Source: Bacteroidales bacterium (lineage in GTDB: Bacteria; Bacteroidota; Bacteroidia; Bacteroidales; Muribaculaceae). From it: 64,000 nucleotides of DNA. Each line of letters begins with the position of its first letter. Within the stretch, counting starts at the first letter, position 1. Below the pieces are notes generated by a model that saw only the letters and a list, made by a program, of their open reading frames with translations, was not told the origin of the DNA and ran no database searches. Below are positions 39,932 through 61,685 of the stretch, in pieces. The stretch spans positions 1 to 64,000 of the forward strand of contig JAAVFI010000013.1 of the NCBI GenBank assembly GCA_014800815.1, in the 5' to 3' direction. Position numbers and translations under genes: made by a program.

Positions 39932-41494
39932 TCAAAGGATTGCGGCAAGATTTTCCTCGAAATGGTCCTTATCGGCGAGTCGCGACTTCAGTCTGTTGCG
40001 ATAGGTGTATATCGTATTCACCGAAAGGCCGAGAGCCTCCGAGAGTCTCGCTGTATCAGTTATGCCGAGCTTGAGAAAAGCAGCGATGCGCAGCTCTGGA
40101 GTCAGAGTTTCGGCCGGAGGTATCGGTATCTGTCGGCCCGGCAGCATCAACCCGTTGAGCTTCTCTATGAAATCGGGAAATGTAGAGAGGAATGTTGAGT
40201 CGAAGTTCGTGAAATATTTATCCTTTTCCTGCTGAAGATATTTGCCGGATTCCAGCTCGGAATAGAGGTCCTTCACCTGTCCGGCTTTCAGCTTGCGGAA
40301 TATATGCACATGCAGTTCTTTGCTTTGCTCTATGGCAGAGAAAGCAAGGGAGATTAGATTCAGATTTGTGCGTTGCGACGATGCTGCCTGCGACTCCAGC
40401 TTGCTGCGGAGTTCACTCTCGGCAAGCCTGCTTTCTTTAAGTTTCTGCCGAAGTATCCATACGGCACAACAACCTGCAATACAAGAGAGTGCAAGTAGTA
40501 CTATCCATATCCACGAAGTACGTCGAAGCGACACGGCCTCATCACTTGCCAGGCGTGCATAGTGCGCGCGATCAAAGGATGTGTATGGCTGAGCATACGA
40601 ATAGTCGGAGGTCTCCAATGCCAGACTGATGCACCTTCTGCCGAGCTTGCCGTGATTTTCCTTGATAAGAAGCTCTCCCAGAGTAGCGAGAGCTTCCGGA
40701 CGCGCCATGCCATTGTTGAGATTATACATCACGCGACGTGCAAGCATATTTATATATGTCTGGTACTGAGAGGGCTTTTCTTTGTAATAATCACAGATAA
40801 TCCTCATTGCGTCATCTTTCAGGTCGGGATGCTCGTTCAAGTCCTTCAGAACTTCTGCTAACGATGCCACGGCAAGGTTCGTCTCGCCGTCGAACATGTA
40901 TTTGTACGCTTCAAGGAAACGCCCGACAGTCGACGACTGAGGATAGTAATTGATCAGAGAATCGAGAGACGCGTTTCGTTTTTTGATGTAGTAGTTCTTG
41001 TACTGACCTTTGGGGTACGGCATTTGGAGCGAATTATAGAGCTCCATCGAACTCAACCAGTAATTTTTCTTCAACGACTGCGGAACTGATTCATAATCAA
41101 CCGCATTGAAACTCTCTACCGCCTCCCTCGTCACACCGATAGTAGGCATAAGCGAATACAGCTCCAATCGTATTCTCAATTCATCATCCGGCAAATTTGC
41201 CGTGAGAGCATCCTTCTGCGCAATTCTCAGGTACAGGACGGCGCTGTCTATATTGGTCGAAAGGTAGTTGCGACCGAGTTTTTCCCCGATTATCACCTTC
41301 TCCTGCCCGTCCTCAAGTGTGCGTCGCAGCATCTTCAGGTCCTCGAGCATCTGCTCACGCTCCTTTCGCACGCTCTCAAGTTTGTTGAGGCTCGTGGTAA
41401 GACTGTCGAGCAGCAACTCATTGTTGTGGTCGAGGGCAAAGCAACAGAGTACCGTTGTGGCCAGAATGAAGAGAACCAATAGTCGTTGTTTCAT
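39932..41494 (-). CDS. DUF6377 membrane regulator with TPR region and C-terminal HTH
   Basis: A 520-residue signalling protein of a kind often placed near SusC/SusD loci. An N-terminal signal or anchor (LLVLFILATTVLCCFA) is followed by an alpha-helical, TPR-like periplasmic part (about 25-320), one transmembrane helix near 330-350 (SWIWIVLLALSCIAGCCAVWIL), a coiled coil, and a cytoplasmic end with a LuxR-like helix-turn-helix (LTPELRIAAFLKLGITDTARLSEALGLS then TIYTYRNRLKSRL). It resembles the DUF6377 family. It may sense a glycan or envelope state and act on the adjacent polysaccharide locus. It has its own promoter. Confidence 0.8.
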   Translation of the reverse strand: MKQRLLVLFILATTVLCCFALDHNNELLLDSLTTSLNKLESVRKEREQMLEDLKMLRRTLEDGQEKVIIGEKLGRNYLSTNIDSAVLYLRIAQKDALTANLPDDELRIRLELYSLMPTIGVTREAVESFNAVDYESVPQSLKKNYWLSSMELYNSLQMPYPKGQYKNYYIKKRNASLDSLINYYPQSSTVGRFLEAYKYMFDGETNLAVASLAEVLKDLNEHPDLKDDAMRIICDYYKEKPSQYQTYINMLARRVMYNLNNGMARPEALATLGELLIKENHGKLGRRCISLALETSDYSYAQPYTSFDRAHYARLASDEAVSLRRTSWIWIVLLALSCIAGCCAVWILRQKLKESRLAESELRSKLESQAASSQRTNLNLISLAFSAIEQSKELHVHIFRKLKAGQVKDLYSELESGKYLQQEKDKYFTNFDSTFLSTFPDFIEKLNGLMLPGRQIPIPPAETLTPELRIAAFLKLGITDTARLSEALGLSVNTIYTYRNRLKSRLADKDHFEENLAAIL

Positions 41495-41518
41495 ATCTGT
41501 GTAGTCATATTACGACTG

Positions 41519-41549
41519 CAAAGATAGTGATTTTCATAAATATAAACAA
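41519..41549 (-). promoter_or_regulatory. Bacteroidetes-type promoter for the DUF6377 regulator
   Basis: On the minus strand TTG (41547-41549), 20 bp, TATCTTTG (41519-41526), 24 nt before the start codon. Confidence 0.75.
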
Positions 41550-41913
41550 TTTTTATTTATATTTTTCTCTTTATTGTCGCATATATAACAATCAGAAACA
41601 CAGAATAATAGCATTATAGAATATCTTTACATCATTATATTAGATCTATATTGTGTGCTACATTATCAGAATTATTACTAATTTCGCATCAAGTTATAAT
41701 GGTTAGTAAAACAAAGTTTTTGTAATTCAATTTCTAAGAGATTGATTTTAGGTTTGTAGTCGGAGTAACATCCGATTTCAACAAAGGACCCACTCGCGAG
41801 AGCCGGTCCTTTGTTGTTAATAGGCCCAGTGCTAAATTCAGACATGGGGTAGTGCCGATAAGCCGCAAAACGGCTTGCCGGATAAACTTAAATATTCCAA
41901 TAATAATTCTGAT
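41550..41913. other. AT-rich gap with three hairpins between the DUF6377 and sigma-factor genes
   Basis: No gene is visible. The left 200 nt are strongly AT-rich. The right part holds three inverted repeats: a short TCGGA/TCCGA at 41760-41775, a strong 12-bp stem at 41779-41816, and AAGCCG-CAAAA-CGGCTT at 41860-41876. All lie on the 3' side of the sigma-factor gene, so they would be in its mRNA tail if transcription runs through. Confidence 0.5.
41779..41816. terminator. 12-bp perfect hairpin, probable terminator of the sigma-factor gene
   Basis: CAACAAAGGACC pairs with GGTCCTTTGTTG around a 14-nt loop. It lies about 100 nt past the sigma-factor stop codon. There is no T tract, so an attenuator or processing site is also possible. 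Confidence 0.55.
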
Positions 41914-42510
41914 TTAGTGTAGCCAGGGGGCAATTACCGCAACTATAGTTATAAGAGCGGAACTGATATCCTTACGGAGTGTGCGTAGTGCGAGTTCGAT
42001 GTGTTTTTCGACAGTGCGTACCGAAAGGCCGAGTATTTCGGCAATCTCTTTAGCGGATTTGAATTCGTATCGGTTAAGACAGAAAATGCGGCGTCTCTTG
42101 TCGGGCATCGAAGCGATAGACTTATTGACGGCTTCTTCGAGCTCGATATAATCGTAGTTAGAGTCTACACCCGGCGTTGACATGATGTTTGCGTGTACGG
42201 CATCGTTGAAGCGGTCGTTGAACCGAGTGCTTTTCAGACGAAGGTAATTGAAAATTTCGTATTTCACGAATACATAAATATATGCCGTGACTGAAAGCTC
42301 CTCGCGCATTGACGCTCTGGTGCTCCAGATTTTCATAAAAACGTTTTGAAGGAGGTCGTCGGCCACATCGCTGTTAGCGATAAAACGGAGTATGAAATGA
42401 CGGAAGCGGGGATAGTATCGAAGAAAAAGTTCCTTGAAGCTATCCTCGTCACCGGCTTTAATCCTTATTATAAGCTCGTAGTCTTGGAGAGTGTTTTGTT
42501 TTTTATTCAT
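41914..42510 (-). CDS. ECF RNA polymerase sigma factor (Bacteroidetes SusCD-linked type)
   Basis: A 198-residue ECF sigma factor. Region 2 is near residues 25-95 (FLRYYPRFRHFILRF, DDLLQNVFMKIW); region 4 is near 125-180 (SMPDKRRRIFCLNRYEFKSAKEIAEILGLSVRTVEKHIE). The hydrophobic C-terminus (ISSALITIVAVIAPWL) recurs in the Bacteroides expansion family. It diverges from the polysaccharide locus that holds its likely anti-sigma (FecR, 45.6 kb) and signalling SusC (STN domain). It would direct RNA polymerase to the locus when the transporter binds its ligand. Confidence 0.92.
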   Translation of the reverse strand: MNKKQNTLQDYELIIRIKAGDEDSFKELFLRYYPRFRHFILRFIANSDVADDLLQNVFMKIWSTRASMREELSVTAYIYVFVKYEIFNYLRLKSTRFNDRFNDAVHANIMSTPGVDSNYDYIELEEAVNKSIASMPDKRRRIFCLNRYEFKSAKEIAEILGLSVRTVEKHIELALRTLRKDISSALITIVAVIAPWLH

Positions 42511-42623: not shown

Positions 42624-43526
42624 ATGAAAAAACTTCTCATCACATTAGCATTCTTGGTAAGCAATTTATTAATAGTGTTTGCAGGTACGACCCCTTCTCC
42701 TGCATCTCCTGATACGCTGAAGATAATGTCGTTCAACATTCGGTTTGATAATCCGAAAGACACATGTGATCAATCGTGGAACAGCCGACGCGCGCCGATT
42801 CGGCGAATGTTTGAGGAGATACAGCCTGATGTGATAGGGATGCAAGAGCCTCGTATAGGGATGCTCGACTCGACGTATGCCCTTTTGCCCGCTTTCGAAC
42901 ACTTCAAGATAGAGGCAGACGAGAACATTTCAGACCCTCAGACAGGGAATATTGTGATATTTTATAGAAAGGCCAGGTTCGAGCCGCTTGATTCGGGCTA
43001 CTTCTGGCTCAGTGAGACTCCCGAAGAGGCATCTGTGCCGTGGAACTCTACCGACACACATTATCGTACGGCTCTTTGGATGAAACTTCGAGATCGTGAC
43101 AGCGGAAAGGAATTCTATTTCTGCACTACGCATTTCCCGTACAAGAAGGCACCTGTCGACACTGAGGTCCGGGCGCGCTGCGCATCGCTCATCGTGGATA
43201 GGATGAAGAGCCTTGCGGGTGACGACGCTGTGGTGTTCGTTACCGGAGATATGAATGCGTCGTATAGCGCCACCGACCCGCGGCGCGGGAGTATAACTCC
43301 TTTCTTCGAGAATATGCACTCGGCTCGCGAAGAAGCTGTGTTTACCAACGCGCGGTCGTCGTTCAACGGATTCGGTCGAGTTTCTCCCGAGATACGCGGC
43401 AAGAATCTTGACCACATATTTTATTTAGGCGCACGAGCTCTTTTGTTTGAAACTGTCGACTATCCCGGCTATGGAGTTCGGTGGATTTCAGATCATTATC
43501 CCATATTATGCTATTTTGAACTATGA
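42624..43526 (+). CDS. Secreted endonuclease/exonuclease/phosphatase (EEP) family protein
   Basis: A 300-residue exported metal-dependent phosphoesterase-fold protein. From MKKLLITLAFLVSNLLIVFAG it has a signal peptide; the ORF-track start 16 codons earlier is not needed. Active-site blocks of the EEP fold are complete: LKIMSFNIRFDN, DVIGMQEPR with the metal glutamate, FCTTHFPY, FVTGDMNAS and RWISDHYPIL with the catalytic histidine. Family members hydrolyse nucleic acids, sphingomyelin, inositol phosphates or other phosphodiesters. In Bacteroidetes polysaccharide loci the substrate is usually unknown. It overlaps the GH97 gene by four nucleotides. Confidence 0.85.
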   Translation: MKKLLITLAFLVSNLLIVFAGTTPSPASPDTLKIMSFNIRFDNPKDTCDQSWNSRRAPIRRMFEEIQPDVIGMQEPRIGMLDSTYALLPAFEHFKIEADENISDPQTGNIVIFYRKARFEPLDSGYFWLSETPEEASVPWNSTDTHYRTALWMKLRDRDSGKEFYFCTTHFPYKKAPVDTEVRARCASLIVDRMKSLAGDDAVVFVTGDMNASYSATDPRRGSITPFFENMHSAREEAVFTNARSSFNGFGRVSPEIRGKNLDHIFYLGARALLFETVDYPGYGVRWISDHYPILCYFEL

Positions 43527-45538
43527 AACAACGATTATTGACAGCAGCGATTGCGAGCATTCTTGCCTGCGGCGTCGCCGCTGCTTCCATGCGTGAATAT
43601 ACACTGTCTTCACCCTCGGGAATACTTCGGGCAGAAGCCGGTGTCGGTGATTCACTTACACTCAGTCTTGTAGATTCTGCAGGCAGGGTGTTGCTCTCGC
43701 CTTCTACAATAGGGCTTAAATGGATCGATAACAAAGAGTGGGGCAGAGATTGCCGTGTGAACAAGGTGCTACGCAGTAGCGCTCACGATACTATCTCTGC
43801 ACCGTTCTATAAGAAATCCCGAGTCGAAGACAGCTATAACGGCATCACATTAAAGATGAAGGACGGCTATGATGTGGAAATTCGTCTTTACGACGACGGC
43901 CTTGCCTATCGCTTCGTTAACTCCGGAGGAAAGAGAGGACAAGTGGAGTCGGAAAAGGCCGTTTACCGCCTGCCGTCCGACTGTGAAATGACTGTCCCTT
44001 ATGTGCGTAACCGCAAGAAAAAGCAGGATGCACCTTATGAGGAATTGTTCTGGAACGATATGCAGAGCCAATATACGAGTACTCCGATGTCGGAGCTTAA
44101 GAAAGGCAGACTGATGTTTACCCCACTGCTTGCCGATATGGGATATGGTGTACTTGCATTTGCCGAAGCGGACGTTGAGTCGTGGCCCGGTATGTACCTG
44201 ACAGTGTCGGACGAAGATTACACATTGGAAGGTGTATCAGCTCCTCGGCCATCTGCAATTACAGGTGGCGGACACAACGACGTGGAGCATATGGTTGTGG
44301 CACGTTGTCCATATATAGCCGAAGTTACAGGACGCCGTGTAATGCCGTGGCGTGCTTTTATATATACCCCGGATGTATGCCGCCTGCCGGAGAACGATAT
44401 GGTGTATCGGTTGGCATCGCCCTCGCGGATAGAAGATGTGTCGTGGATACAACCCGGCAAAGTCGCCTGGGACTGGTGGAACGACTGGGGAGTGTATAAT
44501 GTGGATTTCAAGGCCGGTATAAATACTCCTACATATCTCAAATTTATTGATTTCGCTGCCGGACACGGTATAGAATATGTGATAATGGATGAAGGCTGGG
44601 CCACCAAGGGTGCCAACGACCTTTTCGATATTGTGCCGGCGATAGATATGGATGCCATACTTGAACATGCTTCCGCAAAGGGTGTCGGAATAATATTATG
44701 GGCGGGCTTCCGACCTATGATAGAGAATCTTGACGAGGTATGCGAACGCTATGCTGCCAAGGGCGTCAAGGGATTCAAGATTGATTTCCTGAACCGCGAT
44801 GATCAACAGATGATTGAAGACATGTACCGTATAGCCGAGGTCTGTGCAAAGCACAAACTATTGGTCGATTTCCACGGCTGTTGCAAACCATCGGGACTCC
44901 AGCGCACGTGGCCCAACGTGGTGAACTATGAAGCTGTTTTCGGTCTGGAGCAACTGAAGTGGAGCAAACCCGATGTTGATCAGTTGACGTATGATGTAAC
45001 GCTACCATTCATCCGCAGCATTGCCGGCCCCATGGACTATACTCCCGGAGCGATGCGTAATGCCGTCCCCGGGCAGTACTACCCCTGCCGCAGCAATCCG
45101 ATGAGCCAGGGTACACGCTGTCACCAGCTTGCGGAGTTTATAGTATTTGACTCGCCGCTGACCATGATGTGCGACTCGCCCACCAACTATGAGCGAGAAC
45201 CGGAGTGTACGGCCTTCATAGCCGAAATCCCCACTACGTATGCAGATACTCGCGTTCTATGTGGCAAGCCCGGCGAGTATATCGTTATGGTGAGGGAGTC
45301 CGGCGACGGCACTTTCTATATAGGGGCGCTTACAGGCCGGGATTCGCGGAGTGCTGAAATTTCGCTTGACTTCCTGCCCGAAGGCAACTTCACAATCGAA
45401 GAATTTTCCGATGGTGTCAATGCCTCGCGTCAGGCGTCGGATTACCGACGGGTAGCCCGAACTGCCGACCGCACCCAAAGGCTGAAGATTGAAATGGCCC
45501 CCGGCGGAGGATATGCCGCCTCTATAAAACGCAACTGA
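43523..45538 (+). CDS. GH97 glycoside hydrolase, retaining type (alpha-galactosidase-like)
   Basis: A 671-residue exported enzyme (signal peptide to about residue 21) with the GH97 layout: N-terminal beta-super-sandwich, TIM barrel from about 305 to 580, C-terminal beta domain. Two clues favour the retaining subgroup typified by BtGH97b rather than inverting SusB: D421 in GFKIDFLNRDDQ at the nucleophile place, and E470 in VVNYEAVFGLEQ as acid/base. The activity of the retaining type is alpha-galactosidase or a related alpha-linked sugar. It is translationally coupled to the EEP gene upstream and probably acts in the periplasm on imported oligosaccharides. Confidence 0.9.
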   Translation: MKQRLLTAAIASILACGVAAASMREYTLSSPSGILRAEAGVGDSLTLSLVDSAGRVLLSPSTIGLKWIDNKEWGRDCRVNKVLRSSAHDTISAPFYKKSRVEDSYNGITLKMKDGYDVEIRLYDDGLAYRFVNSGGKRGQVESEKAVYRLPSDCEMTVPYVRNRKKKQDAPYEELFWNDMQSQYTSTPMSELKKGRLMFTPLLADMGYGVLAFAEADVESWPGMYLTVSDEDYTLEGVSAPRPSAITGGGHNDVEHMVVARCPYIAEVTGRRVMPWRAFIYTPDVCRLPENDMVYRLASPSRIEDVSWIQPGKVAWDWWNDWGVYNVDFKAGINTPTYLKFIDFAAGHGIEYVIMDEGWATKGANDLFDIVPAIDMDAILEHASAKGVGIILWAGFRPMIENLDEVCERYAAKGVKGFKIDFLNRDDQQMIEDMYRIAEVCAKHKLLVDFHGCCKPSGLQRTWPNVVNYEAVFGLEQLKWSKPDVDQLTYDVTLPFIRSIAGPMDYTPGAMRNAVPGQYYPCRSNPMSQGTRCHQLAEFIVFDSPLTMMCDSPTNYEREPECTAFIAEIPTTYADTRVLCGKPGEYIVMVRESGDGTFYIGALTGRDSRSAEISLDFLPEGNFTIEEFSDGVNASRQASDYRRVARTADRTQRLKIEMAPGGGYAASIKRN

Positions 45539-45599: not shown

Positions 45600-46580
45600 A
45601 TGGATGCGAATACATTTGAGAAATTCCTGCTCGGGCGCTGTACTCCCGAAGAGCGACTTACTGTCGAAGCCTGGTTTATGAACCATATCGATAGCGAGGA
45701 GGTGGACCGCATGAGTCTCGAAATCCTCGGACGAATGTCGGCTTACCAAGACCGCAGGAAGGCTTTGGCCTCGTACAAAGTATTCCGCCGACGGATGGGA
45801 TTTCGCCGCAGGTTTACATGGAGTGCGAGATTGTTTAAAACAGCAGTAGCCGCAACTGTTCTTGTAGCAGCAGTTGTCACAGCCTACAGAGTCGGAGTCG
45901 GTACTTCCACGTCGCAGTTGCCTCAGATTCCCGACTACGCGCGTCTGGTGGCACCTTCCACAGGAATGCTTACGGCAACACTTCCCGACTCGAGCACTGT
46001 GCTTCTGCGAGCCGGAAGCCATATAGTCTTCGACAGGAGAAGTTTTAATACGAATCGCAACCTGCTGCTTTTCGGGGATGCTTATTTCGAGGTCTCTGCT
46101 GATAGCCTGCATCCCTTTACCGTTCAGTGTCGGGATGCTTCGATAGAAGTGCTGGGTACCCGCTTCGATGTAAGGTCGCATGAAGATGACTCTGAATTTG
46201 AAGTCGCGCTGTACGACGGTACGGTCAAACTAATGTCGGGCTTCAACAAACACGACGATACATTGATACTGCATCGTGGCGAAGTGGCGAAGGTCGACAA
46301 GGTCTCCGGGGCACTGAGTACTATGACAATCGATGGCCTTGATGTACCGTTGGCCGACGAGCTGCTCATGTTCATAGACAAACCGCTGGTAGATATAGTG
46401 AACACGCTTCGTCGACGCACGGGCACCAATATAGTGCTTGCCAACCGCAACCTCAGCGGCGTAAAATTCTTTGCAATATTCAACGGAGATGAAACCCCGG
46501 ATCGAATACTCTCCACGCTTGCCCTGAGCGAACCAATGACTATAAAGCGCACAGACAGCTGCACTATAGAAATAAGATAG
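45600..46580 (+). CDS. FecR-family anti-sigma factor
   Basis: A 326-residue inner-membrane anti-sigma factor. A short cytoplasmic part (residues 1-75, FLLGRCTPEERLTVEAWF) would bind the ECF sigma factor. One helix follows near 80-97 (TAVAATVLVAAVVTAYRVGVG), then the periplasmic FecR domain (LVAPSTGMLTATLPDSSTVLLRAGSHIVF, FDVRSHEDDSEFEVALYDGTVKL) and a DUF4974-like end (VDIVNTLRRRTGTNIVLANRNLSG) that should contact the SusC STN domain. The sigma factor is encoded 3 kb away on the other strand rather than next to it. Confidence 0.92.
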   Translation: MDANTFEKFLLGRCTPEERLTVEAWFMNHIDSEEVDRMSLEILGRMSAYQDRRKALASYKVFRRRMGFRRRFTWSARLFKTAVAATVLVAAVVTAYRVGVGTSTSQLPQIPDYARLVAPSTGMLTATLPDSSTVLLRAGSHIVFDRRSFNTNRNLLLFGDAYFEVSADSLHPFTVQCRDASIEVLGTRFDVRSHEDDSEFEVALYDGTVKLMSGFNKHDDTLILHRGEVAKVDKVSGALSTMTIDGLDVPLADELLMFIDKPLVDIVNTLRRRTGTNIVLANRNLSGVKFFAIFNGDETPDRILSTLALSEPMTIKRTDSCTIEIR

Positions 46581-46611: not shown

Positions 46612-49600
46612 ATGAAAAAAGACGAAGAGCGCCACTCGTGGCGCATGACAGCACGAGCCTTTGCGGCTATGCTGGCTGCCTCGCTCACACTCTATGCCTC
46701 GGCTCTTGACTTCCACGTCAAGGATGCCACGGTGCGCGAATCGGTGATGCGACTGCAGCGTCAGTCGGGAATGCCGGTAACGGTGAATGCCGACAATGCC
46801 GACCTTGACCGGCGGATATCGCTTGATATGACCTCGGCAGACCCTATAGATATCCTTAAAGAAATATTCAAAGGCCAGCAGGTGGCATGCACATCGAACG
46901 ACGGTGCACTCGTTGTGCGCCGTGCTCCCGAGAACGAAAATTCTGTCAAGGCTCCGCTACCCAAGATCAGCGGTACTGTTGTAGCCGAATCCGACGGCGA
47001 GCCTCTGATAGGAGCCACCGTACTCAACAAGGCCGAGCATCAGGCCGTAGTTACGGATATCGATGGACACTTCACGATAGCCGCCAAGCCAGGCCAGGAG
47101 CTTACCGTGACATATATAGGTTTTCGCGAACAGCATATCAAGGTCGGCGCTTCGACAACACTCGATATCCGCATGGCAGAAAATTCGGAGGCCTTGACAG
47201 AGGTAGTTGTCGTAGGTTTCGGCAGCCAGAAGAAGGTGAATATCACAGGCGCGGTGAGCGTACTTGACAATGGCGAAATCAACGGGCGTCCTGTTTCTTC
47301 GACCGCACACGCTCTTCAGGGCCTGGACCCAGCTATGAACATCGGTATCAATACAGGCCGCGCATCATCAGGATATTCAATCGACATCCGCGGTACGGCC
47401 TCTCTCAACGGAGGAGAGCCTCTTATCCTTGTCGACGGTATTGAGATGCCTCTCAACCGTGTGAACCCCAACGACATCGAAACCGTGTCGATTCTTAAAG
47501 ACGCGTCGGCATCGGCCGTCTATGGCGCCAAGGCCTCGGCAGGTGTTGTACTCGTAACAACTAAAAGCGGTGCCAACCAGCGTATATCCGTAAGCTACAA
47601 CGGACGCTACGGCTGGGCCAAGAATACTACTTCTACCGATTATATCACAAGTGGTTATGACTGGGGAAAGGCCGTGGACAAGTTTAACTATATCTACACC
47701 AACCAGAAGTATCTTAAGTATGACGAGGATGACTGGGCAGAGCTCGAGGCACGCCGCTATGACAAAACAGAGCACCCCGACCGCCCCTGGGTAGTAGTTG
47801 GAGAAGACGGTAACTATAAATACTACGGCAACTTCGACTGGTATGGCTATCTATTTCGTCGCACACGTCCGCAGCAGGAGCACAACGTGTCGATTCGCGG
47901 CGGCAACGATAAGGTGAATTACTTCGTAAGCGGACGCTACTATTCGGCCGACGGCCTGATGAATATCATCAACGACCCCTTCAATTCATATAACTTCCGC
48001 ACACGTCTGAAGATCAATCTCGCCAAGTGGGCACGTTTCGATACAAATGTCAACTATTTCTATGGCAAGACCACGTGGGTAGGCTTCACCAATATAGAAA
48101 AGGCCTTTACCAATTCATCCTATGCAGGCTCGCCTCTGTTTGTGCCCCGCAACCCCGACGGCTCGATAGTGCACAGAACCGATGTAGTGAACCAGAGCGC
48201 AAGCGTATGTGCCGACTATAACCTGATGATAAACACAGGCAATAACCGTAATTCTGAGGAAAACAACGATATAGCAATCAAGAATAATCTTGAGCTTGAT
48301 CTGGCTCCGGGTCTTACCGCCCACCTCAGCTACGCCTATCGCACACATGCCTACTTCGAGACTCATCGTCGTGCCAATGCCGAGTACTCCAACGGCCCCG
48401 ACAAGTTCACAACTGTAAATACGGGCTATTTCATCAATCGTCTGGCCGAGACAGATACCCGCAGCTACCGAAATACCTTCGAGGGATATCTTGACTATAG
48501 TCATCGTTTCGGGGCAGACCACAATTTCAAGGTAATGGCAGGTGTACAGTACGATCACTACAACAAACGCTCCAAGAGCATAAGCCGCGAAGGGCTTGTG
48601 AGCGATGAACTCGATGACTTCGATCTCGCTACCGGCGAGACATACACCCTCACCGGCGGCAAGACGGCATACAAGACTCTCGGTATCTTCGGTCGCGCCA
48701 ACTATGACTATGCAGGCCGCTATCTTCTTGAGGTTTCAGCCCGTGCCGACGGTTCGTCGCGCTTCCGCAGAGGTCATCGCTGGGGTTTATTTCCCTCCGG
48801 CTCGGCCGGTTGGCGAATGAGCGAGGAAAAGTTCTGGCGCCCTTTATCTACATGGTGGAACAATGCCAAGCTCCGTGTATCGGTAGGCTCGCTCGGAAAC
48901 CAGCAGGTAGCTGACTTCCTCTTCTATGATAAAATCACCACAGGTAATTTCGCGAGTGGTTTCACATTCAACGGAATGGACCCTATGCAGTATTCCGCCG
49001 AGTCAAATCCTGTTGCCTCCGACCTTACTTGGGAAAAAGTGACCACTTATGACGTAGGTCTCGACCTTGCATTCCTCAACAACCGCCTTACCGCGAGCGC
49101 CGACTACTATGTGCGCAATACCACAGATATGATGATGCCCGGAGCCACACTCCCGGGTGTATATGGCGTCTCCGCTCCAAAACAAAATTCAGGCGATATG
49201 CGCACAAATGGTTGGGAACTCGTCCTTCGCTGGCACGACCACTTCCGCCTCGGAGCACATACACTCAACTATGGATTGAATGCATCTATCGGAGACTATA
49301 AGAGTGTTGTCACACGTATAAACAATGAAACCCGCATCATTGGCTCGCACTATAAAGGCGAGCAAGTGGGCGAAATCTGGGGCTATACCGTCGACGGCCT
49401 TTTTGCGTCCGATGAAGAGGCTGCCGCCTATCAGGAAATGGTAGACGTATCCTACTTCCTCTCACGAATCATGAGCAAAGGAGCTCCCGAGTATAAAAAA
49501 CTCGTCGGTGGCGACCCGCGCTATATAGATACCAACGGCGACGGCGTTGTCAACCGTGGCAAGAATACAGTAGACGACCCCGGCGACCGTAAAGTTATAG

Positions 49601-50172
49601 GCAACACATTGCCCCGCTACTCTTATACTTTCGGAGGAGAAGCTTCATGGCTCGGTATCGACTTCTCGATACTCTTTCAGGGCGTAGGCAAGCGCGACTG
49701 GTATCCCGGTGGTGGTTACTCCAATCTTTTCTGGGGTCCTTACTGCCGTCCTCACTCCACATTTATATCGCAGCAATTGCTCGATCAGGTGTGGAGCCCC
49801 GAGAATCCTGATGCATATTTCCCCTTCCCCCGTGGTAGTGAGGCCTTTTCATCCAACTCCAATTCAACCTACGATAATTCAAATTCCCACTACACACTTA
49901 CATCGCCCAACACCCGCTATCTGCAGAGCGTAGCTTATCTCCGACTCAAGAACGTAAGTATCGGCTACACCCTTCCGTGCCTCAAGAAATACGTGCAGCA
50001 GATACGTGTATATGTCACAGGCGAAAACCTTGCATACTGGTCGCCTCTGAAAAAGCACTGCAAGTACATCGACCCTGAAGGCGCTATATCAGGCTCTGCT
50101 CAGTATTCAAATTCAGGAGAAGTGTACAACTTCAGTAAAACTTACTCTATCGGTGTAGACATCACTTTCTAA
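46612..50172 (+). CDS. SusC-type TonB-dependent transporter with STN signalling domain
   Basis: A 1186-residue outer-membrane importer. After a signal peptide (AFAAMLAASLTLYASA) comes an STN domain (about 33-108, FHVKDATVRESVMRLQ), then a CarboxypepD_reg domain (118-200), the plug (about 205-330) with the SusC signature ILKDASASAVYGAKASAGVVLVTT, and a 22-strand barrel ending in SIGVDITF. The STN domain shows it can signal to FecR when loaded. The ligand is unknown. It starts 31 nt after fecR and lies 15 nt before susD. Length is normal for a SusC with an STN domain. Confidence 0.95.
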   Translation: MKKDEERHSWRMTARAFAAMLAASLTLYASALDFHVKDATVRESVMRLQRQSGMPVTVNADNADLDRRISLDMTSADPIDILKEIFKGQQVACTSNDGALVVRRAPENENSVKAPLPKISGTVVAESDGEPLIGATVLNKAEHQAVVTDIDGHFTIAAKPGQELTVTYIGFREQHIKVGASTTLDIRMAENSEALTEVVVVGFGSQKKVNITGAVSVLDNGEINGRPVSSTAHALQGLDPAMNIGINTGRASSGYSIDIRGTASLNGGEPLILVDGIEMPLNRVNPNDIETVSILKDASASAVYGAKASAGVVLVTTKSGANQRISVSYNGRYGWAKNTTSTDYITSGYDWGKAVDKFNYIYTNQKYLKYDEDDWAELEARRYDKTEHPDRPWVVVGEDGNYKYYGNFDWYGYLFRRTRPQQEHNVSIRGGNDKVNYFVSGRYYSADGLMNIINDPFNSYNFRTRLKINLAKWARFDTNVNYFYGKTTWVGFTNIEKAFTNSSYAGSPLFVPRNPDGSIVHRTDVVNQSASVCADYNLMINTGNNRNSEENNDIAIKNNLELDLAPGLTAHLSYAYRTHAYFETHRRANAEYSNGPDKFTTVNTGYFINRLAETDTRSYRNTFEGYLDYSHRFGADHNFKVMAGVQYDHYNKRSKSISREGLVSDELDDFDLATGETYTLTGGKTAYKTLGIFGRANYDYAGRYLLEVSARADGSSRFRRGHRWGLFPSGSAGWRMSEEKFWRPLSTWWNNAKLRVSVGSLGNQQVADFLFYDKITTGNFASGFTFNGMDPMQYSAESNPVASDLTWEKVTTYDVGLDLAFLNNRLTASADYYVRNTTDMMMPGATLPGVYGVSAPKQNSGDMRTNGWELVLRWHDHFRLGAHTLNYGLNASIGDYKSVVTRINNETRIIGSHYKGEQVGEIWGYTVDGLFASDEEAAAYQEMVDVSYFLSRIMSKGAPEYKKLVGGDPRYIDTNGDGVVNRGKNTVDDPGDRKVIGNTLPRYSYTFGGEASWLGIDFSILFQGVGKRDWYPGGGYSNLFWGPYCRPHSTFISQQLLDQVWSPENPDAYFPFPRGSEAFSSNSNSTYDNSNSHYTLTSPNTRYLQSVAYLRLKNVSIGYTLPCLKKYVQQIRVYVTGENLAYWSPLKKHCKYIDPEGAISGSAQYSNSGEVYNFSKTYSIGVDITF

Positions 50173-54245: not shown

Positions 54246-56026
54246 ACTTACGTCAATCATTATTTCGTATACTTGCGGCCTCTATGTGTCTGATGCTCTC
54301 TGCATCGGGCTACGCCGAGCGCCGGCAGATGAAAATACTTGCAGTAGGCAACAGTTTCACGGTAGATGCCGTGCAGGACGACCTCGTGCCTATGGCAGCG
54401 GCTGACAGCATCGATCTTATCATAGGATATCCCTACAAGGGCGGTACAAGCCTGAAGCAACATCTTCAGTATATCACTGCCGACAGTACTATATACAACT
54501 ATCGCAAGGCTACTCCCTCAGGCCCTATGCCGTATCGTCCGGGCTCCACTATGAAGCAGGCTGTCGAAGACGACGATTGGGAATTGGTGATTCTACAGAC
54601 AAATTACAGTGGCGGAAGCGGTTTCCGCGAAGAGTACTATCCCTATATCGATCAGGTGAGAGACTCTATCAAGGCACACCTTGCTCATCCTGATGATGTT
54701 CGCTGGGGACTTTACATGACATGGGCATACGATAAGGACTCGAAGCATAAGCACTTCCCGAAATACAATAATGATCAGAATCTGATGTACTCCATGATAG
54801 CCGAGGTGGCTCCATTTGTCATGGAGAATACCGACATCAACATAATCATTCCTGCAGGTACGGCAATTCAGAATCTGCGTACTACAAAAGCCTTCGGCGA
54901 CCGCATGAACCGTGACGGATACCACATGAATCTCGATCACGGGCGCTATACCGTGGCTTGCGTATGGTACGAGGCTCTTACTGGACGTTCGCCGCTTGGC
55001 AATTCATATCGACCAAAGGAACTCTCGCCGTATCAGGCTACGCTGTGTCAGATTGCAGCTCACCTTGCAGTGCAGAATCCATACCAAGTTACCGATATGA
55101 GTTCTTTCGGGCCCGATCCTCTCATCGCGCATTTTGGCGACAGTATTCCCCAAAGACTCGAACTCGGTACCACAATAGGTCCTCTCGGCGGATTGAAAAA
55201 ATTGAGTTATAGCAATCTGCGCAACCTTCGCAATAGTGATATGCGCCATATCGAGGTATCGCTGACAGGTCTGGTCAACGGCGATAACCCCATGTCTGAG
55301 AAAGAATTGCAGAAGCGCTTCCGCAAACTCAAGCACGATGCCGATTCTGCAGGCATCAACATCTGGTCTATCCACATGCCTTACGGTATTGACTACGATG
55401 CTTCGTCAACCGATGAGAAAAAGCGCCGGGCTTGTGAAGCTAAGTATCGTAAATATATCGACCTTGTATCTGTGCTCGAACCGGAATACATCCTTTTCCA
55501 CCCCTCTGCATCGTCCATTACTCCGGGATGCCGCACAGAGCATATCAGTCAGGCTGTCAAGACTATCTCCAATCTTAACAAGGACGTGAAGCGAATCGGC
55601 GCCGCGATTGTGGTGGAAAATCTGCGCGGACCGCATCTGCTACGGCCTGACGGAACCGAACGTGGCCTCGGCAGAACAGTAGACGAGATGTGCACTCTCA
55701 TGGATGCTTTGCCCGGCGATATATACGCCGCAGTAGATCTCAATCACATTGCAAATCCCGAAAAACTCATCCGCGCACTCGGCGGCAGAGTCAAGAGCCT
55801 TCATGTTTCTGACAGCGACCAGACTCGCGACTGCCATTTTCTGCCGGGTCGCGGCACCAACGACTGGCCGGAAATAATTGCCGCCCTTTACGAAACAGGC
55901 TACGACGGCCCCTGGCTGTATGAAATAAAACAGAAGGAGGTTGAGGTGTATGGCGAAATGACGTCTGCCTACAATTGGGCTTACCGATCTTATCTTGAAA
56001 AACTATATGACCAATCCGAATTATGA
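54242..56026 (+). CDS. Fusion of DUF4886 (SGNH-like) and sugar-isomerase-type TIM barrel
   Basis: A 594-residue exported protein (signal peptide MNLRQSLFRILAASMCLMLSASGYA) with two parts. Residues about 29-285 match DUF4886, an SGNH-hydrolase-like domain: ILAVGNSFTVDAVQDD with the candidate nucleophile serine, then GLYMTWAY and NLDHGRYTVACVWYEALTG. Residues about 305-590 match the xylose-isomerase-like (AP endonuclease 2) barrel: ILFHPSASS, AAIVVENLRGPH, YAAVDLNHIANPEK, SLHVSDSD and FLPGRGTNDWPEII, a full set of metal-site blocks. It might remove an ester or acyl group and then process a sugar. It overlaps both neighbours by four nucleotides. Confidence 0.75.
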   Translation: MNLRQSLFRILAASMCLMLSASGYAERRQMKILAVGNSFTVDAVQDDLVPMAAADSIDLIIGYPYKGGTSLKQHLQYITADSTIYNYRKATPSGPMPYRPGSTMKQAVEDDDWELVILQTNYSGGSGFREEYYPYIDQVRDSIKAHLAHPDDVRWGLYMTWAYDKDSKHKHFPKYNNDQNLMYSMIAEVAPFVMENTDINIIIPAGTAIQNLRTTKAFGDRMNRDGYHMNLDHGRYTVACVWYEALTGRSPLGNSYRPKELSPYQATLCQIAAHLAVQNPYQVTDMSSFGPDPLIAHFGDSIPQRLELGTTIGPLGGLKKLSYSNLRNLRNSDMRHIEVSLTGLVNGDNPMSEKELQKRFRKLKHDADSAGINIWSIHMPYGIDYDASSTDEKKRRACEAKYRKYIDLVSVLEPEYILFHPSASSITPGCRTEHISQAVKTISNLNKDVKRIGAAIVVENLRGPHLLRPDGTERGLGRTVDEMCTLMDALPGDIYAAVDLNHIANPEKLIRALGGRVKSLHVSDSDQTRDCHFLPGRGTNDWPEIIAALYETGYDGPWLYEIKQKEVEVYGEMTSAYNWAYRSYLEKLYDQSEL

Positions 56027-58536
56027 TTAAAATCAGAACACTACTCTCCATTGGTGCTATTGCTCTGGCTTCATCTATGGCCTGGGCGGGCGCGAACCTG
56101 ACGCTCGGTACCTACAATGTGCGCCTGCGCACTCTTACCGACAAAACAGATGATCCGGCTACCAACAAGTATTGGGACGCTCGTGCCGACTATGTGGCGC
56201 GTACCATACGCGACTGCGGTTTTCAGGTGGTGGCGCTCAATGAGCTTACCGACGATGACCGTCTCGACGGGCACACCATGATGCAGGATATGTACCGCAA
56301 CTTCCGGGCACCCGAGTGGGCTTTTGTGGAGGCAAGCAGCCGGGATGTCCGCAACCTCGGAACCATACACTGCGTGCTGTACAAAACCGATGTCGTCGAG
56401 GAACTGGAGCACGGCAGCTTCTGGCATTCGCCTACTCCCGAAACTTTCAGCGATGATGTGTATGACTTCGGCAACAAGGCGCGTATGTCGCTGTGGGTAA
56501 AATTTCGTGTGAAGGAAACCGGTGAGATATTCTACTTCTTCGAGACGCATCTTCATCATCAGGGCAATATGGGCCGCAATGAGGGCGCCCGCTTAAATGT
56601 AGAGTACGCCCGCAAACTTTCGGGCGGATATCCTGTGTTTATCGCAGGCGACCATAATTCATACGAGAGCCGTTTCCCCATGTACGACCTCTGTAGCGCC
56701 TACTTTATGGACAGTCGCAAGAATGCCGAGAAGGTTATCGGACCGGAGGGTACGTGCAATGTGTGGACTACTTCGGCCAATACGCGCCTTGACCACGTGT
56801 GGGTGCGCGGCGCCAAAATACACTCTTACACTGCTTTCGAAGAGAAGTATGACCTTGGGTTCTATCCCTCCGACCACCTGCCCGTTGTGCTCAACGTTAC
56901 TCTTGAAGATCCTCTTGAAAACCGCGTGAAATACGTTGCCGAAAGTGCCTCTGAGGGTGGCGACGGCAGTATATCGGCACCGTTTGCCAATCTGCAGGAT
57001 GCTCTTGACTCTTGCGTTAAGGGCGATACCATACGTGTGACTGAAGGTACTTACTATCCCACCTACTCGACCGGAGGCAAGTTCCCGCAGAGCTACTTCA
57101 ACGTGAGCAAGTCGGTGACGATACAGGGTGGATATAACGATACTTTTACAGCTGTTACGGGTAAGTCGGTATTTTCGGGCGACCTCAATGGCAACGGAAT
57201 TACCGATGAAGGCGATGCCACTCATGTATTCGCCGTAGCCAAAACTGAAGCTTTCGAGCTTTCCGATGCCGAGGTGTGCCACGGCTATTCGAAGGGAACG
57301 AATGGAGCGGGTATACTATGCGAAGGCCCGCGAGTAATTCTCGATCGCGTAACGGTTAGAGACAATATGTCGCGAGCATTCGGCGGCGGCGTATACGCTT
57401 ATGCGCAACTGATAGCCCGCAACTGTACTTTCGAACGTAACGAGACAACCGGAACCGGCGGTGGTGTCTACGTCAATTACAATAATGGTAAGATTTGGTG
57501 GTTCCACCATATAAGTGACTGCGTGTTTAGAGACAACAAGGCTCTTGGCGGTTCGGCGGCTTATATAACCGGCTCTCTGTGGGTGAATGTGATGGGCAAT
57601 ACTTTCGACGGCAATGTGAGCACCGCCCGCGGTACACTCACTATCGGCGGCGACAAGATTTCGACTCCGGTGACAATCTGCAACAACACTTTCGTAAACA
57701 ACAAGGTTGAGATTACCAACAATACAAATGCGGTGGGCGGTTCGGCTATACTTATACTCGATATGAAGACCGACGGCGGAACAGACTCGCCCGCAGCTAC
57801 TGTGGCGATCATCAACAATACTATAGTGAATAACGAATGCCTATACGCCGAAGGTGTAGGTCCGGCTACAGGATTCCGCGGAGCTGCTGTGCAGACTACA
57901 AATGTCATGCAGCTGTATCTAAACCACAATATTATTGCGGGTAACTATTCCGTTGGCCCCAATGCAGACGTATATATTCAGCAGCCCGATGCTCTGGTAA
58001 AGGGTCAGAGTCGCTACAATCTCTTTACTTCGGCTCAGTCGATAAGCTACTCGAAAGAGTACTACGACCTTCAGGGAACTGATGCGGCAAGTACCGCAGC
58101 CGAACTTGCATCGGTTCTCGACGGTACTGTGATCGACGGGCGATTCTATCCCAATCTTGCCCAAAACGGTGGTGCAACTCCTACGGTACGACTGGTAAAC
58201 CCGACTTTTGCCGGCAAACCTGTGAACTGCATCAAGAAGACCAACCTTGCCGAGGATAAGGTCGTGGCCGACCTGAATGCGGATCGCCAGATTCAGAAGG
58301 CCCTTCTTGATGTGGACCAGCGAGGCGTGGCGCGCAGCCTTACCAACAGTGCTTGCATAGGCGCCTATGAGTGGAGTGTCGACGACCCTGCCGCAGGCAT
58401 GAAATCCGCAGTAATCGGAGATACAGATGCGCCTGCTGTATATTACAATTTACAAGGCATGCGAGTGGAAAATCCGACACCCGGTATCTACATCGTGCGT
58501 AAGGGACACAGCACAGCCAAAGTTATGATTCAATAG
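56023..58536 (+). CDS. Fusion of EEP phosphoesterase, beta-helix and sorting-like tail
   Basis: An 837-residue exported protein (signal peptide to about residue 22). Residues 24-295 form an EEP domain with complete active-site blocks (LTLGTYNVRLR, VVALNELTDDD, FFETHLHH, FIAGDHNSY, YPSDHLPVVLNV). Residues about 300-760 form a right-handed beta-helix of the parallel repeat type (AGILCEGPRVILDRVTVRDN, GGGVYAYAQLIARNCTFERNE, ATVAIINNTIVNNECL). The final 35 residues (AVYYNLQGMRVENPTPGIYIV) are the tail shared with three other proteins here. The build suggests a surface- or matrix-bound phosphodiesterase with a carbohydrate-binding or cleaving helix. Confidence 0.8.
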   Translation: MIKIRTLLSIGAIALASSMAWAGANLTLGTYNVRLRTLTDKTDDPATNKYWDARADYVARTIRDCGFQVVALNELTDDDRLDGHTMMQDMYRNFRAPEWAFVEASSRDVRNLGTIHCVLYKTDVVEELEHGSFWHSPTPETFSDDVYDFGNKARMSLWVKFRVKETGEIFYFFETHLHHQGNMGRNEGARLNVEYARKLSGGYPVFIAGDHNSYESRFPMYDLCSAYFMDSRKNAEKVIGPEGTCNVWTTSANTRLDHVWVRGAKIHSYTAFEEKYDLGFYPSDHLPVVLNVTLEDPLENRVKYVAESASEGGDGSISAPFANLQDALDSCVKGDTIRVTEGTYYPTYSTGGKFPQSYFNVSKSVTIQGGYNDTFTAVTGKSVFSGDLNGNGITDEGDATHVFAVAKTEAFELSDAEVCHGYSKGTNGAGILCEGPRVILDRVTVRDNMSRAFGGGVYAYAQLIARNCTFERNETTGTGGGVYVNYNNGKIWWFHHISDCVFRDNKALGGSAAYITGSLWVNVMGNTFDGNVSTARGTLTIGGDKISTPVTICNNTFVNNKVEITNNTNAVGGSAILILDMKTDGGTDSPAATVAIINNTIVNNECLYAEGVGPATGFRGAAVQTTNVMQLYLNHNIIAGNYSVGPNADVYIQQPDALVKGQSRYNLFTSAQSISYSKEYYDLQGTDAASTAAELASVLDGTVIDGRFYPNLAQNGGATPTVRLVNPTFAGKPVNCIKKTNLAEDKVVADLNADRQIQKALLDVDQRGVARSLTNSACIGAYEWSVDDPAAGMKSAVIGDTDAPAVYYNLQGMRVENPTPGIYIVRKGHSTAKVMIQ

Positions 58537-58609: not shown

Positions 58610-58653
58610 TTTGTCATATAGGCGGTATTTATCTTAAAAACTAACATAAGACC

Positions 58654-60111
58654 ATGAAAAAAACTCTTCTTTTGGCCGCCGCTACTATTTTTGCCGGAAG
58701 TTTGGCTATGGCAGAAACGGTAGTCTATGACTTCACAAACTTTAAAGATGGAGAGACCGTAATGGCTCAATGGCCCGAAATTGGCAATGCCTGGATTGCT
58801 TGTAACCCCGCAAAGGGTGGCGAGCCTCGTACAATCACCAACGAAAACACCGATATCACTTTTGCATACAACGGAGGGTCGAGCGCCGGCCAGTTCCGTG
58901 CAAGCAAAACAAAGGGTATCAACAATCTCCAGTTGGGTAAGTCGATGATGATGACAATTAGTTCGACTGCCGAAAATTACGTTATCACGCAAGTCGTAGT
59001 GCAGGGCAATCGCTCGGCCGACACCTCGAGCCTTGTCGATGAGCTTACGAGCCCCGAGACTTCCGGCACGCTGGTATATGATGCCGACGCCAAAACCACA
59101 ACCTGGACGGCAAGTGCTCCGGGCGTGGAATGTGTGCTCGACGCAAACTCAGGGGCATATATAGAATCCATAACCCTGACTCTCGAAAAGACCGAGCTCA
59201 AGCCTGCCAATGTATCGTGGAGCGAAACGGAGTGTACCGTGAATCTTAACGGTGTGTATGAATTCCCCACTCTGAGTCGTGATACTGATGCTGATGTGAA
59301 ATATACTTCGTCGGATGCGAGTGTGGCTGCAATAGATCCTGTCACCGGCGAGATAACTGTCCTTGCAGAAGGCTCAACAAAGATTACGGCAGCATGCGAA
59401 GCAAACAGCGCCTACGACTGGGGTGAAGCTTCGTATACGCTTGTGGTAATGCCCGAGGGCTATAGTAGTGTAGTCTACGATTTCACTAATTTCAAATCCG
59501 GAGAGACGGCAATGGCTGAGTGGCCGGAAATTACCAATTCGTGGTGGACCACCAATCCTGATGATGAGGGAAGCTATTCTTCCGGCACACATTTCTGTCC
59601 GTTGACGATAACCTGCGGCAAAACAAGCATTACTTTTACTGCGGTAGGCGGTCATGGCAATGTGCGTGCCTCTGTTTCCTCTAAGCAGAACAATCTGCAG
59701 CTCGGTGCGGGCGCATATATGACCATCCTTCCTACAGTTGAGAAGTATAAGTATGTGAAGGTGACTGTGAAGGGAAATACCAAAATCGCTGATAACCGCG
59801 TAAGCACAATAACTACACCCGAAACTTCAGGAACTGTAAGCTACGACGCGGAAACCAAGATTATGACCTGGGAGCCGGTATCGGATGATGCTGTATGTGA
59901 ACTTGATGTGAACGGCGGCGCATATATCGAGGCTGTTACTGTAGACTTTATTGAAATTCCGAGTGTCCCTACGGGTGCCGTCAATGTTGAAACCGATACC
60001 GACACCCCCGCAGTCTACTACAACCTGCAGGGTATTCGCGTTGAAAATCCCTCGGGTGGACTATATATCCGTCGAGTGGGTAACCGCTCTGAAAAAGTGA
60101 AGATTCCGTGA
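58654..60111 (+). CDS. Secreted protein with two homologous beta domains, Ig-like linker and sorting-like tail
   Basis: A 485-residue exported protein (MKKTLLLAAATIFAGSLAMA). Two homologous domains of about 160 residues begin with VVYDFTNFKDGETVMAQWPE (near 23) and VVYDFTNFKSGETAMAEWPE (near 273). Each contains NNLQLG and ends in GAYIESITL or GAYIEAVTV. Between them is a BIG2-like Ig segment (about 185-265). The tail YYNLQGIRVENPSGGLYIRR is shared with the neighbours. No enzyme motif is visible; a glycan-binding or matrix role is a guess. The next gene encodes a close paralogue behind a near-identical upstream element, so the pair looks like a tandem duplication. Confidence 0.75.
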   Translation: MKKTLLLAAATIFAGSLAMAETVVYDFTNFKDGETVMAQWPEIGNAWIACNPAKGGEPRTITNENTDITFAYNGGSSAGQFRASKTKGINNLQLGKSMMMTISSTAENYVITQVVVQGNRSADTSSLVDELTSPETSGTLVYDADAKTTTWTASAPGVECVLDANSGAYIESITLTLEKTELKPANVSWSETECTVNLNGVYEFPTLSRDTDADVKYTSSDASVAAIDPVTGEITVLAEGSTKITAACEANSAYDWGEASYTLVVMPEGYSSVVYDFTNFKSGETAMAEWPEITNSWWTTNPDDEGSYSSGTHFCPLTITCGKTSITFTAVGGHGNVRASVSSKQNNLQLGAGAYMTILPTVEKYKYVKVTVKGNTKIADNRVSTITTPETSGTVSYDAETKIMTWEPVSDDAVCELDVNGGAYIEAVTVDFIEIPSVPTGAVNVETDTDTPAVYYNLQGIRVENPSGGLYIRRVGNRSEKVKIP

Positions 60112-60136
60112 AAAAATAGTGATCCTTGAAAAAAAA

Positions 60137-60173
60137 TAGCGCGGGGGCATTACGTAGTTTTGCCTCCGCGCTA
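60137..60173 (+). promoter_or_regulatory. Hairpin element B with ATTACGTAGTTTTG loop
   Basis: TAGCGCGGGGG and CCTCCGCGCTA pair (11 bp with one G-T) around CATTACGTAGTTTTG, the same 15-nt loop as element A. The G-T pair sits at a different place in the stem, so pairing is kept while bases change. The TAGTTTTG box is 50 nt before the start at 60213. Confidence 0.5.
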
Positions 60174-60212
60174 TTTCCCATAGTACTGAACCTTAAAACT
60201 ATATTCAGGATC

Positions 60213-61685
60213 ATGAAAAAAATTTTACTTCTTGCAACTGCTGCCTTGCTCTCTTGCGGCTCGGCCATGGCTGAAACAGTCACTTTCGACTTCAATCTCG
60301 ACAACCCCTGGGATTGGAACAGTATTCCTAAAAATTCGTCAGGTTACATCGACGCTTCTGCAGTACCCGTAAACTGCGTGGAAGCTCCCGTAACTCTCAG
60401 TATCGACGGAAAATTCCGCCGATATGCACAGCAGGCTCTCGGTGGTACGATTTGCCTCCTCATGTACCAGGACACTTCCTTGTCGTTTACTACCGCCGAA
60501 GGCTACAAAATGACGGAGATAACTTTCTATGGTGGTACGGCCAAGTTTGCCGACCTCGCTGTGAAAGAAGGCGAAACCGAACTCCCTGCCGAAGAGCCTA
60601 CCTACGGCGACGGCTGGAATCATACTTCATCAGGCGCACACATCGATGAAGTATACCGCATGGCATACTGCAACACTGCAGGCCCGATCGTATTCTACAA
60701 TCCCACAAACACTACCAACGTCGTTACCAAAATTGAGGTGACTTATGAGGCATCCTCGCTCAAGGAAGCAGGTCTCGCTTGGTCGAAGAAAGAATTCACG
60801 GCCTTTATGAACGAGGATAACACCTTCCCCACACTCTCAAAAGCAACCGATGCCGCTATCGACTATGTCTCGGACAACGAGGAAGTTGCTTCAATTGATG
60901 CAACAACAGGTGTCATCACCCTCCATGCTCCCGGCACCGCTAAGATTATCGCAGGATGCGATGCTACCGATACCTACGACTGGGGTGAGGCATCTTATAT
61001 CCTCACAGTGAAGCGTCAGGGCCAGATTACAGCTCACTACAACTTCACCGAATTCGCCGACATCGAGGGAACCGACAATCAGTGTATCGCCGGTTATCCC
61101 GACATCCTCGTCACCACATGGTGGACAACCAATCCCGATACCAGCTATGGCTCAGGCACTCAGTTTAAGCCCCTCACCATATACAACGACGGCACTGAAA
61201 TAACTTTCAATTACGACGGCACCGGTGGTCACGGCAACGTACGCGGTACTACCACTACCAAGCAGCAGAATCTGCAGCTCGGCAGCAGCGCCTGCATGAC
61301 TATCAAGGGAACTGCCGAAAACGCTCGCCTCTACGAGGTGAAAGTGCAGGGCAACCGCAAAACTTCTAACGGCAGCATGCTTGATCAGATGACTACGAAT
61401 GATGAAGGAGAGATAGAATTCGATGAAGAAAACCGATTCCTTACCTGGACTCCGAAAACAGAAGATGCGGTGTGCTATCTTGATGCCGAGCACGGTGCTT
61501 ACATCGAAACCATTACAGTAGAGTATCACCTCGGCTCCACAGGCGTCGGCAATGTCGCAGCTGACTCCGACGGCAATGCTCCGGCTGAATACTTCAACAT
61601 ACAAGGTATGCGTGTAGACAATCCGGAAAAGGGTCTCTATATCTGCCGCAAAGGCTCAAAGGTAACTAAGATTGTGATTCAATAA
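60213..61685 (+). CDS. Secreted paralogue of the preceding protein with sorting-like tail
   Basis: A 490-residue exported protein. The start MKKILLLATAALLSCGSAMA gives a clean signal peptide; the track's start 29 codons earlier lies inside hairpin B. The N-terminal domain (about 21-185) resembles that of the 5065 protein (EGYKMTEITFYGG). An Ig-like segment follows, then a C-terminal domain (near 300-460) closely like the second domain of the preceding protein (ACMTIKGTAENA, GHGNVRG, NLQLGSS, GAYIETITV). The tail is YFNIQGMRVDNPEKGLYICR. A strong terminator ends the transcript. Confidence 0.75.
   Translation: MKKILLLATAALLSCGSAMAETVTFDFNLDNPWDWNSIPKNSSGYIDASAVPVNCVEAPVTLSIDGKFRRYAQQALGGTICLLMYQDTSLSFTTAEGYKMTEITFYGGTAKFADLAVKEGETELPAEEPTYGDGWNHTSSGAHIDEVYRMAYCNTAGPIVFYNPTNTTNVVTKIEVTYEASSLKEAGLAWSKKEFTAFMNEDNTFPTLSKATDAAIDYVSDNEEVASIDATTGVITLHAPGTAKIIAGCDATDTYDWGEASYILTVKRQGQITAHYNFTEFADIEGTDNQCIAGYPDILVTTWWTTNPDTSYGSGTQFKPLTIYNDGTEITFNYDGTGGHGNVRGTTTTKQQNLQLGSSACMTIKGTAENARLYEVKVQGNRKTSNGSMLDQMTTNDEGEIEFDEENRFLTWTPKTEDAVCYLDAEHGAYIETITVEYHLGSTGVGNVAADSDGNAPAEYFNIQGMRVDNPEKGLYICRKGSKVTKIVIQ

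Follow-up and report, generated by a model that had tools for sequence, protein, structure and literature searches.

The described system nearest to the locus considered here, a polysaccharide utilization locus (PUL) at 42624-62986 of the first 64,000 nucleotides of contig JAAVFI010000013.1 from a Muribaculaceae bacterium (assembly GCA_014800815.1; this whole stretch is the window, and the source genome comprises 2.77 Mb in 79 contigs), is PUL24 of Bacteroides thetaiotaomicron (BT1871-BT1877). Both encode a glycoside hydrolase family 97 (GH97) enzyme of the same equivalog, an extracytoplasmic function (ECF) sigma/FecR pair and SusC/D, but PUL24 has a putative endo-arabinase and a beta-glucosidase in place of the EEP phosphoesterase-fold, GH31, DUF4886, TIM-barrel and SDF symporter genes of the window locus (PMC11501099), and with this different gene content it was not accepted as the same system. 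An earlier note on this DNA had seen here the best candidate for an undescribed system in the window; in the open-licence literature no locus of identical gene order was found to have been characterised, PUL24, with its GH97, coming nearest.

Other described proteins resemble single components. LlGH31_u1 of Lactococcus lactis (7WJ9) is the closest GH31 that has been solved and assayed, and its catalytic Asp pair is kept, but it has no signal peptide and is taken as intracellular, whereas the window GH31 bears a signal peptide, lies in a PUL and is fused to DUF4886 or TIM domains in relatives. The mannosyl-6-phosphatase BT3783 (4C1R) is a Bacteroides enzyme of EEP fold that acts on a phosphorylated sugar; it is, however, a phosphomonoesterase, and the window locus has two EEP proteins together with GH97 and GH31, one of them bearing a beta-helix and a tail. 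Escherichia coli endonuclease IV (EndoIV, Nfo) shares with our TIM barrel the fold and nine aligned metal ligands, but is a DNA repair enzyme, whereas the TIM domain here is exported and fused to DUF4886 or GH31. The Bacillus subtilis teichoicases GlpQ and PhoD perform the chemistry proposed below, cleaving teichoic acid glycerophosphodiesters, but with GDPD and PhoD folds and not EEP or EndoIV-type TIM folds, and they act on the organism's own wall polymers (PMC7086022). No utilization locus for teichoic acids was found in the open-licence literature. The component families are known, and their combination is a new PUL variant. We propose that it may serve (glycero)phosphodiester glycoconjugates bearing alpha-galactose, alpha-glucose and esters, the simplest known substrate being Gram-positive lipoteichoic acid (LTA) or wall teichoic acid (WTA) with a glycolipid anchor, a reading for which we judge the chances evenly balanced.

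Results

The genes from EEP1 to the SDF symporter form a single operon on the + strand, with the ECF sigma gene divergent. In one co-directional run, EEP1 and GH97 are followed by the FecR anti-sigma factor (45600-46580; PF04773, PF16344), the SusC TonB-dependent transporter (46612-50172; PF13715, PF07715, PF00593), in which an N-terminal extension precedes the carboxypeptidase-regulatory-like domain, the SusD-like glycan-binding lipoprotein (50188-51948; PF07980, PF14322), GH31, a DUF4886-TIM protein, EEP2 with its beta-helix and tail, two tailed proteins and SDF. Intergenic distances range from -7 to 117 bp, with four overlaps, and, as defines a PUL, an adjacent susC/susD pair is accompanied by degradative genes in the same direction. 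Families were assigned with Pfam and NCBIfam profiles against curated cut-offs unless stated otherwise. Every gene and position listed in the earlier note was borne out as an intact open reading frame (ORF), with families above the cut-offs except where stated, but the list had overlooked the SDF gene, which makes the operon longer. Families, intact active sites and operon layout, like the conserved linkage and domain shuffling described below, were read from the sequence itself.

The GH97 protein (43523-45538) scores 904 bits against the 800-bit cut-off of the NCBIfam 'retaining alpha-galactosidase' equivalog (NF053844), can be aligned along its length to the alpha-galactosidase 3A24 (E=2.5e-208) and retains the motif residues D421 and E470. 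The GH31 protein (51942-54245; PF01055) is, by kinship and by both catalytic Asp residues, a GH31_u1-type alpha-1,3-glucosidase of predicted activity: LlGH31_u1 is its closest relative by far (332 bits, the next characterised family reaching 111 bits), and the alignment spans residues 36-695 and keeps the pair D377 and D434. LlGH31_u1 is an alpha-1,3-glucosidase for nigerooligosaccharides that cuts nigerose, with a relative efficiency of 13% on kojibiose (PMC9061262). As had been claimed before, the profiles detected no family of endo-acting glycosidases or of lyases in the locus.

Might this simply be a PUL24-like locus for alpha-galactosides, raffinose-family or melibiose-like, to which EEP, TIM and DUF4886 are accessory? 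Growth on raffinose-family oligosaccharides depends on BT1871, which shares its equivalog with our GH97; sigma/anti-sigma genes and SusC/D likewise occur together in PUL24. However, raffinose-family sugars carry neither ester nor phosphate, the locus lacks a GH32 sucrase, the remaining PUL24 genes differ, and the natural substrate of PUL24 is itself unknown (PMC11501099). Related loci on contig C71 of the same genome and in genome G012 also keep GH31, SusC/D and EEP2 with no GH97 in the stretch read, and we regard an alpha-galactoside locus as very improbable.

Both EEP proteins exceed the PF03372 cut-off and carry the full N/E/H/D-N/D/D-H set. In EEP1 (42624-43526), which has a signal-peptide-like start, the active-site residues N38, E75, H170, D209, N211, D263, D290 and H291 are intact; in EEP2 (56023-58536), N32, E74, H176, D210, N212, D257, D284 and H285 are invariant in the homologue alignment. 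Inactive EEP domains, which had been named as a possible refutation, were not what we found. The nearest PDB relatives of EEP1 are 3G6S, 3MPR and 4C1R. EEP2 continues into a right-handed beta-helix, visible in a partly confident structure model (pLDDT 67), and a C-terminal sorting-like tail; in the structure search, matches to the EEP domain predominated and left the helix unassigned. The helix was rejected as a polysaccharide lyase, the profile signals being only a Pfam beta-helix repeat in a C71 homologue and weak choice-of-anchor Q/DUF1565 matches. The next gene (58654-60111) encodes a tailed surface protein with Big_2, a probable binding protein whose tail is common to EEP2, and is followed by a paralogous tailed protein (60213-61685) with Big_2 just under the cut-off and a homologue in genome G115. 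The tails look like sorting domains, although Pfam Por_Secre_tail matched only a C71 homologue, below its cut-off; SprA of the type IX system is encoded in the same genome, and EEP2-helix and the two tailed proteins may be exported by that system.

A single ORF (54242-56026) encodes a DUF4886 SGNH-like domain (54242-55126; PF16227, 247 bits; 4I8I) and an AP_endonuc_2 TIM barrel (55127-56026; PF01261). No activity is known for any protein of the DUF4886 family (PMC9487903). The domain is a predicted esterase, retaining the SGNH Ser38 and D225-x-x-H228, and in its motifs GNSF and RDGYH the Ser, Asp and His are invariant in the homologue alignment. The TIM domain, whose AlphaFold2 model is confident (pLDDT 90), aligns by hhalign with all nine metal ligands of E. 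coli Nfo, the zinc ligands H69, H109, E145, D179, H182, H216, D229, H231 and E261; the matching residues are H378, H420, E459, D499, H502, H521, D530, H532 and E561. Across five aligned TIM homologues the series H, H, E, D, H, H, D/E, H and E is conserved, D530 being Glu in one of the five.

The TIM barrel could instead be a periplasmic isomerase or epimerase of the released sugar, as its best Foldseek and HMM matches, D-tagatose/allulose 3-epimerases, would have it, EndoIV ranking lower. However, the nine EndoIV ligands include positions that epimerases lack in the alignments examined, one distant homologue carries, in the same protein, a metallophosphoesterase domain resembling purple acid phosphatases, and CbiR, a phosphodiesterase, heads the NCBIfam matches with a score far under its cut-off; no metal data for CbiR were found in the open-licence literature. 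Against the curated D-tagatose 3-epimerase models the protein scores 22-38 bits, with cut-offs of 300-305. A plain sugar epimerase is disfavoured by these scores and the metal ligands, and we hold an epimerase role to be improbable; an exported domain with an EndoIV-type metal site is likelier a phosphodiesterase than an isomerase, and phosphodiesterase is probably its activity. The domain is rare: a sample of 393 genomes from across the order contained it in only 4. In another Bacteroidales family, its homologues (L180 17043-17981 and L182 10034-10975) lie between PHB-type esterase and APH-type kinase genes.

The operon ends with an SstT-like SDF symporter (61796-62986; PF00375; NCBIfam SstT below cut-off). 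In alignments the SDF protein keeps the equivalents of GltPh D394 and N401 and has Gly for R397, which suggests a substrate lacking an acidic side chain. In the family sample, SDF homologues of at least 79% identity occur only in genomes carrying the locus, a 40% paralogue being present in most genomes, and SDF also adjoins GH31 in Prevotella-type loci; these two observations speak against a chance neighbour, and the SDF paralogue is dedicated to the locus.

The gene set is a conserved module. Its relatives lie on C71 of the same genome, in other Muribaculaceae, and in metagenome-assembled genomes (MAGs) of Prevotella/Bacteroidaceae. That the window's own family is most likely Muribaculaceae is also seen from a genome of the same family whose GH31 locus is identical to that of a named Muribaculaceae assembly. 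Gene order in G115 is identical from sigma to SDF, and the Prevotella/Bacteroidaceae MAGs have a GH31-TIM fusion, or GH31 and a separate TIM, with EEP2-helix, GH97 and SDF. The C71 locus comprises SDF, a sulfatase-family gene, FecR, SusC, SusD, a DUF4886-GH31 fusion, two EEP2-helix proteins, sigma and EEP1. There (L040/L041; G000:C71:16001-44315) the sulfatase-family gene, with the Ser-type motif S-G-A-S-R, adjoins the SDF gene. Three fusion pairings occur: DUF4886-TIM (window, G115), DUF4886-GH31 (C71) and GH31-TIM (G012, Prevotella UBA2850). That these domains are joined in three different ways argues for action on one substrate.

The GH31 neighbourhoods point to phosphodiesters. When GH31 neighbours were compared in the family sample over equal flanks of about 1.5 kb each side, a GDPD and/or calcineurin-like metallophosphoesterase gene stood directly beside GH31 in 11 of 14 loci whose GH31 shares 46-52% identity with that of the window, versus none of 13 at 30-35% (Fisher p=3.4e-5). 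In a tree of 56 GH31 sequences the EEP-type clade (n=9) and the GDPD/metallophosphoesterase clade are sisters (joint support 100/98) within a Bacteroidota group. Longer stretches contain SusC-SusD-metallophosphoesterase-GH31-GDPD operons, and in two genomes metallophosphoesterase-GH31-GDPD has as its neighbour a cluster resembling glpT-glpC-glpB-glpA, together with a DeoR-type regulator (the glp names reflect domain content and likeness). Bacteroides faecalis combines GlpA-/GlpB-like proteins, a GlpT-like transporter, GDPD, DUF6377, GH31, SusC/D, a metallophosphoesterase and GH89. Elsewhere in the window's own genome (L172, G000:C24:83001-98078, at 7060-12307) the gene for a 495-aa GDPD-EEP fusion has GH36 and GH27 alpha-galactosidase genes immediately after it; a DUF4855 protein is encoded upstream of the fusion. 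Various phosphodiesterase folds recur with the same alpha-glycosidases, and glycerophosphate is their common theme.

The divergent ECF sigma factor (41914-42510, - strand) scores 135 bits against the TIGR02985 cut-off of 126, and sigma genes are also present in the related loci L040, L042 and L048. The adjoining DUF6377 helix-turn-helix regulator (39932-41494, - strand) is SusR-like (PF19904, 116 bits; NCBIfam SusR 218 bits, below the 480 cut-off). The control by DUF6377 that had been claimed was not borne out: no DUF6377 gene was found beside orthologous loci in the stretches read, which speaks against it as an operon member and leaves its membership of the locus uncertain. Elsewhere DUF6377 genes do adjoin GH31 or glp genes; one lies next door to another cluster of the same genome (L174, G000:C31:1-9000), in which glpT/glpA/glpB-like genes are accompanied by a DeoR-type regulator and a HAD phosphatase, and DUF6377 regulators may track glycerophosphate genes. 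Outside the locus, 38717-39861 holds a pair of neighbouring ORFs for small membrane proteins, of 189 and 192 aa, that resemble a putative split chromate-transporter-type pair.

Discussion

What substrate would require an alpha-galactosidase, a 1,3/1,2-preferring alpha-glucosidase, an esterase of SGNH type, a symporter of the neutral amino-acid type and three domains that may be phosphodiesterases or phosphatases? As predicted from their sequences, these would fit teichoic acid chemistry item by item. Glycerophosphate makes up the polymer of many teichoic acids, to which D-alanyl esters and sugars are attached. LTA carries D-alanine on C2 of glycerol phosphate, and the Listeria anchor is Gal(a1-2)Glc(a1-3)diacylglycerol (PMC3089915); Listeria LTA also carries galactose (PMC4944223). 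WTA of B. subtilis carries alpha-glucose, and teichoic acid substituents block GlpQ (PMC7086022). The earlier note had envisaged a decorated alpha-linked substrate with phosphodiester or ester groups, of glycolipid or teichoic type. That idea stands, its phosphodiester and teichoic part being supported by the GH31 sister clade beside GDPD/metallophosphoesterase and in some cases glp genes, by the EndoIV-type site of the TIM domain and by the GDPD-EEP gene beside alpha-galactosidases; the phosphorylated host glycan or sphingomyelin also considered there was set aside, no family in the locus supporting either.

Activities, cellular places, induction and substrate are what we infer from these features. 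On the cell surface, EEP2-helix and the two tailed proteins would bind and nick the polymer. Fragments would be imported by SusC/D, with induction through the FecR/ECF-sigma pair. In the periplasm, GH97 would remove alpha-galactose, GH31 alpha-glucose, and DUF4886 D-alanyl or acyl esters, and EEP1, EEP2 and the EndoIV-type TIM domain would cleave phosphodiesters and phosphomonoesters otherwise shielded by the substituents. SDF would then import the released neutral amino acid or a similar small acid, D-alanine being a guess.

The proposal draws on association and active-site comparison and leaves room for other phosphorylated glycans. The same enzyme chemistry could be directed at phosphodiester-linked sugars or glycerol in a bacterial or fungal glycan such as a capsule, an exopolysaccharide or phosphomannan. 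Capsules and exopolysaccharides bearing glycerophosphate groups exist, the nearest characterised relative of the EEP proteins is BT3783, and neither EEP nor TIM has an experimental tie to glycerophosphate. However, Pfam and NCBIfam show neither mannosidases nor rhamnosidases nor endo-glycosidases in the locus, a broader GH repertoire is usually required for such glycans, and the sister GH31 clade is linked to GDPD and in some loci to glp. We consider this alternative unlikely, if one to be kept in view.

Several observations weigh against the teichoic acid proposal. BT3783 is a phosphomonoesterase and not a phosphodiesterase, and the whole TIM fold is at least as close to ketose 3-epimerases as to EndoIV. 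No GDPD or glp genes occur in the window locus or the other EEP-type loci within the stretches read; the glycerophosphate link derives from other loci in this genome and from the sister GH31 clade, whose substrates may differ. Metallophosphoesterases occur in other PULs too. The paralogous C71 PUL has neither GH97 nor TIM but does have the sulfatase-family gene, and the SDF substrate is predicted from a few residues only.

The teichoic acid proposal can tentatively be extended to an undescribed class of gut Bacteroidota PULs for teichoic acids of Gram-positive neighbours, somewhat doubtful as yet, that would exist in two versions: one with GDPD, metallophosphoesterase and glp, the other with EEP and EndoIV-type TIM. 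In the latter, DUF4886 would act as D-alanyl esterase, alongside a secreted EndoIV-like phosphodiesterase and an amino-acid symporter dedicated to the locus. On the surface of gut Gram-positive bacteria, teichoic acids are abundant polymers. If the proposal is true, gut Bacteroidota would have a route to carbon, phosphate and perhaps D-alanine from their neighbours, DUF4886 would gain a function, and EEP and EndoIV-like proteins a role outside nucleic-acid work. It would also explain the breakdown of teichoic acids whose sugar and alanyl substituents block GlpQ.

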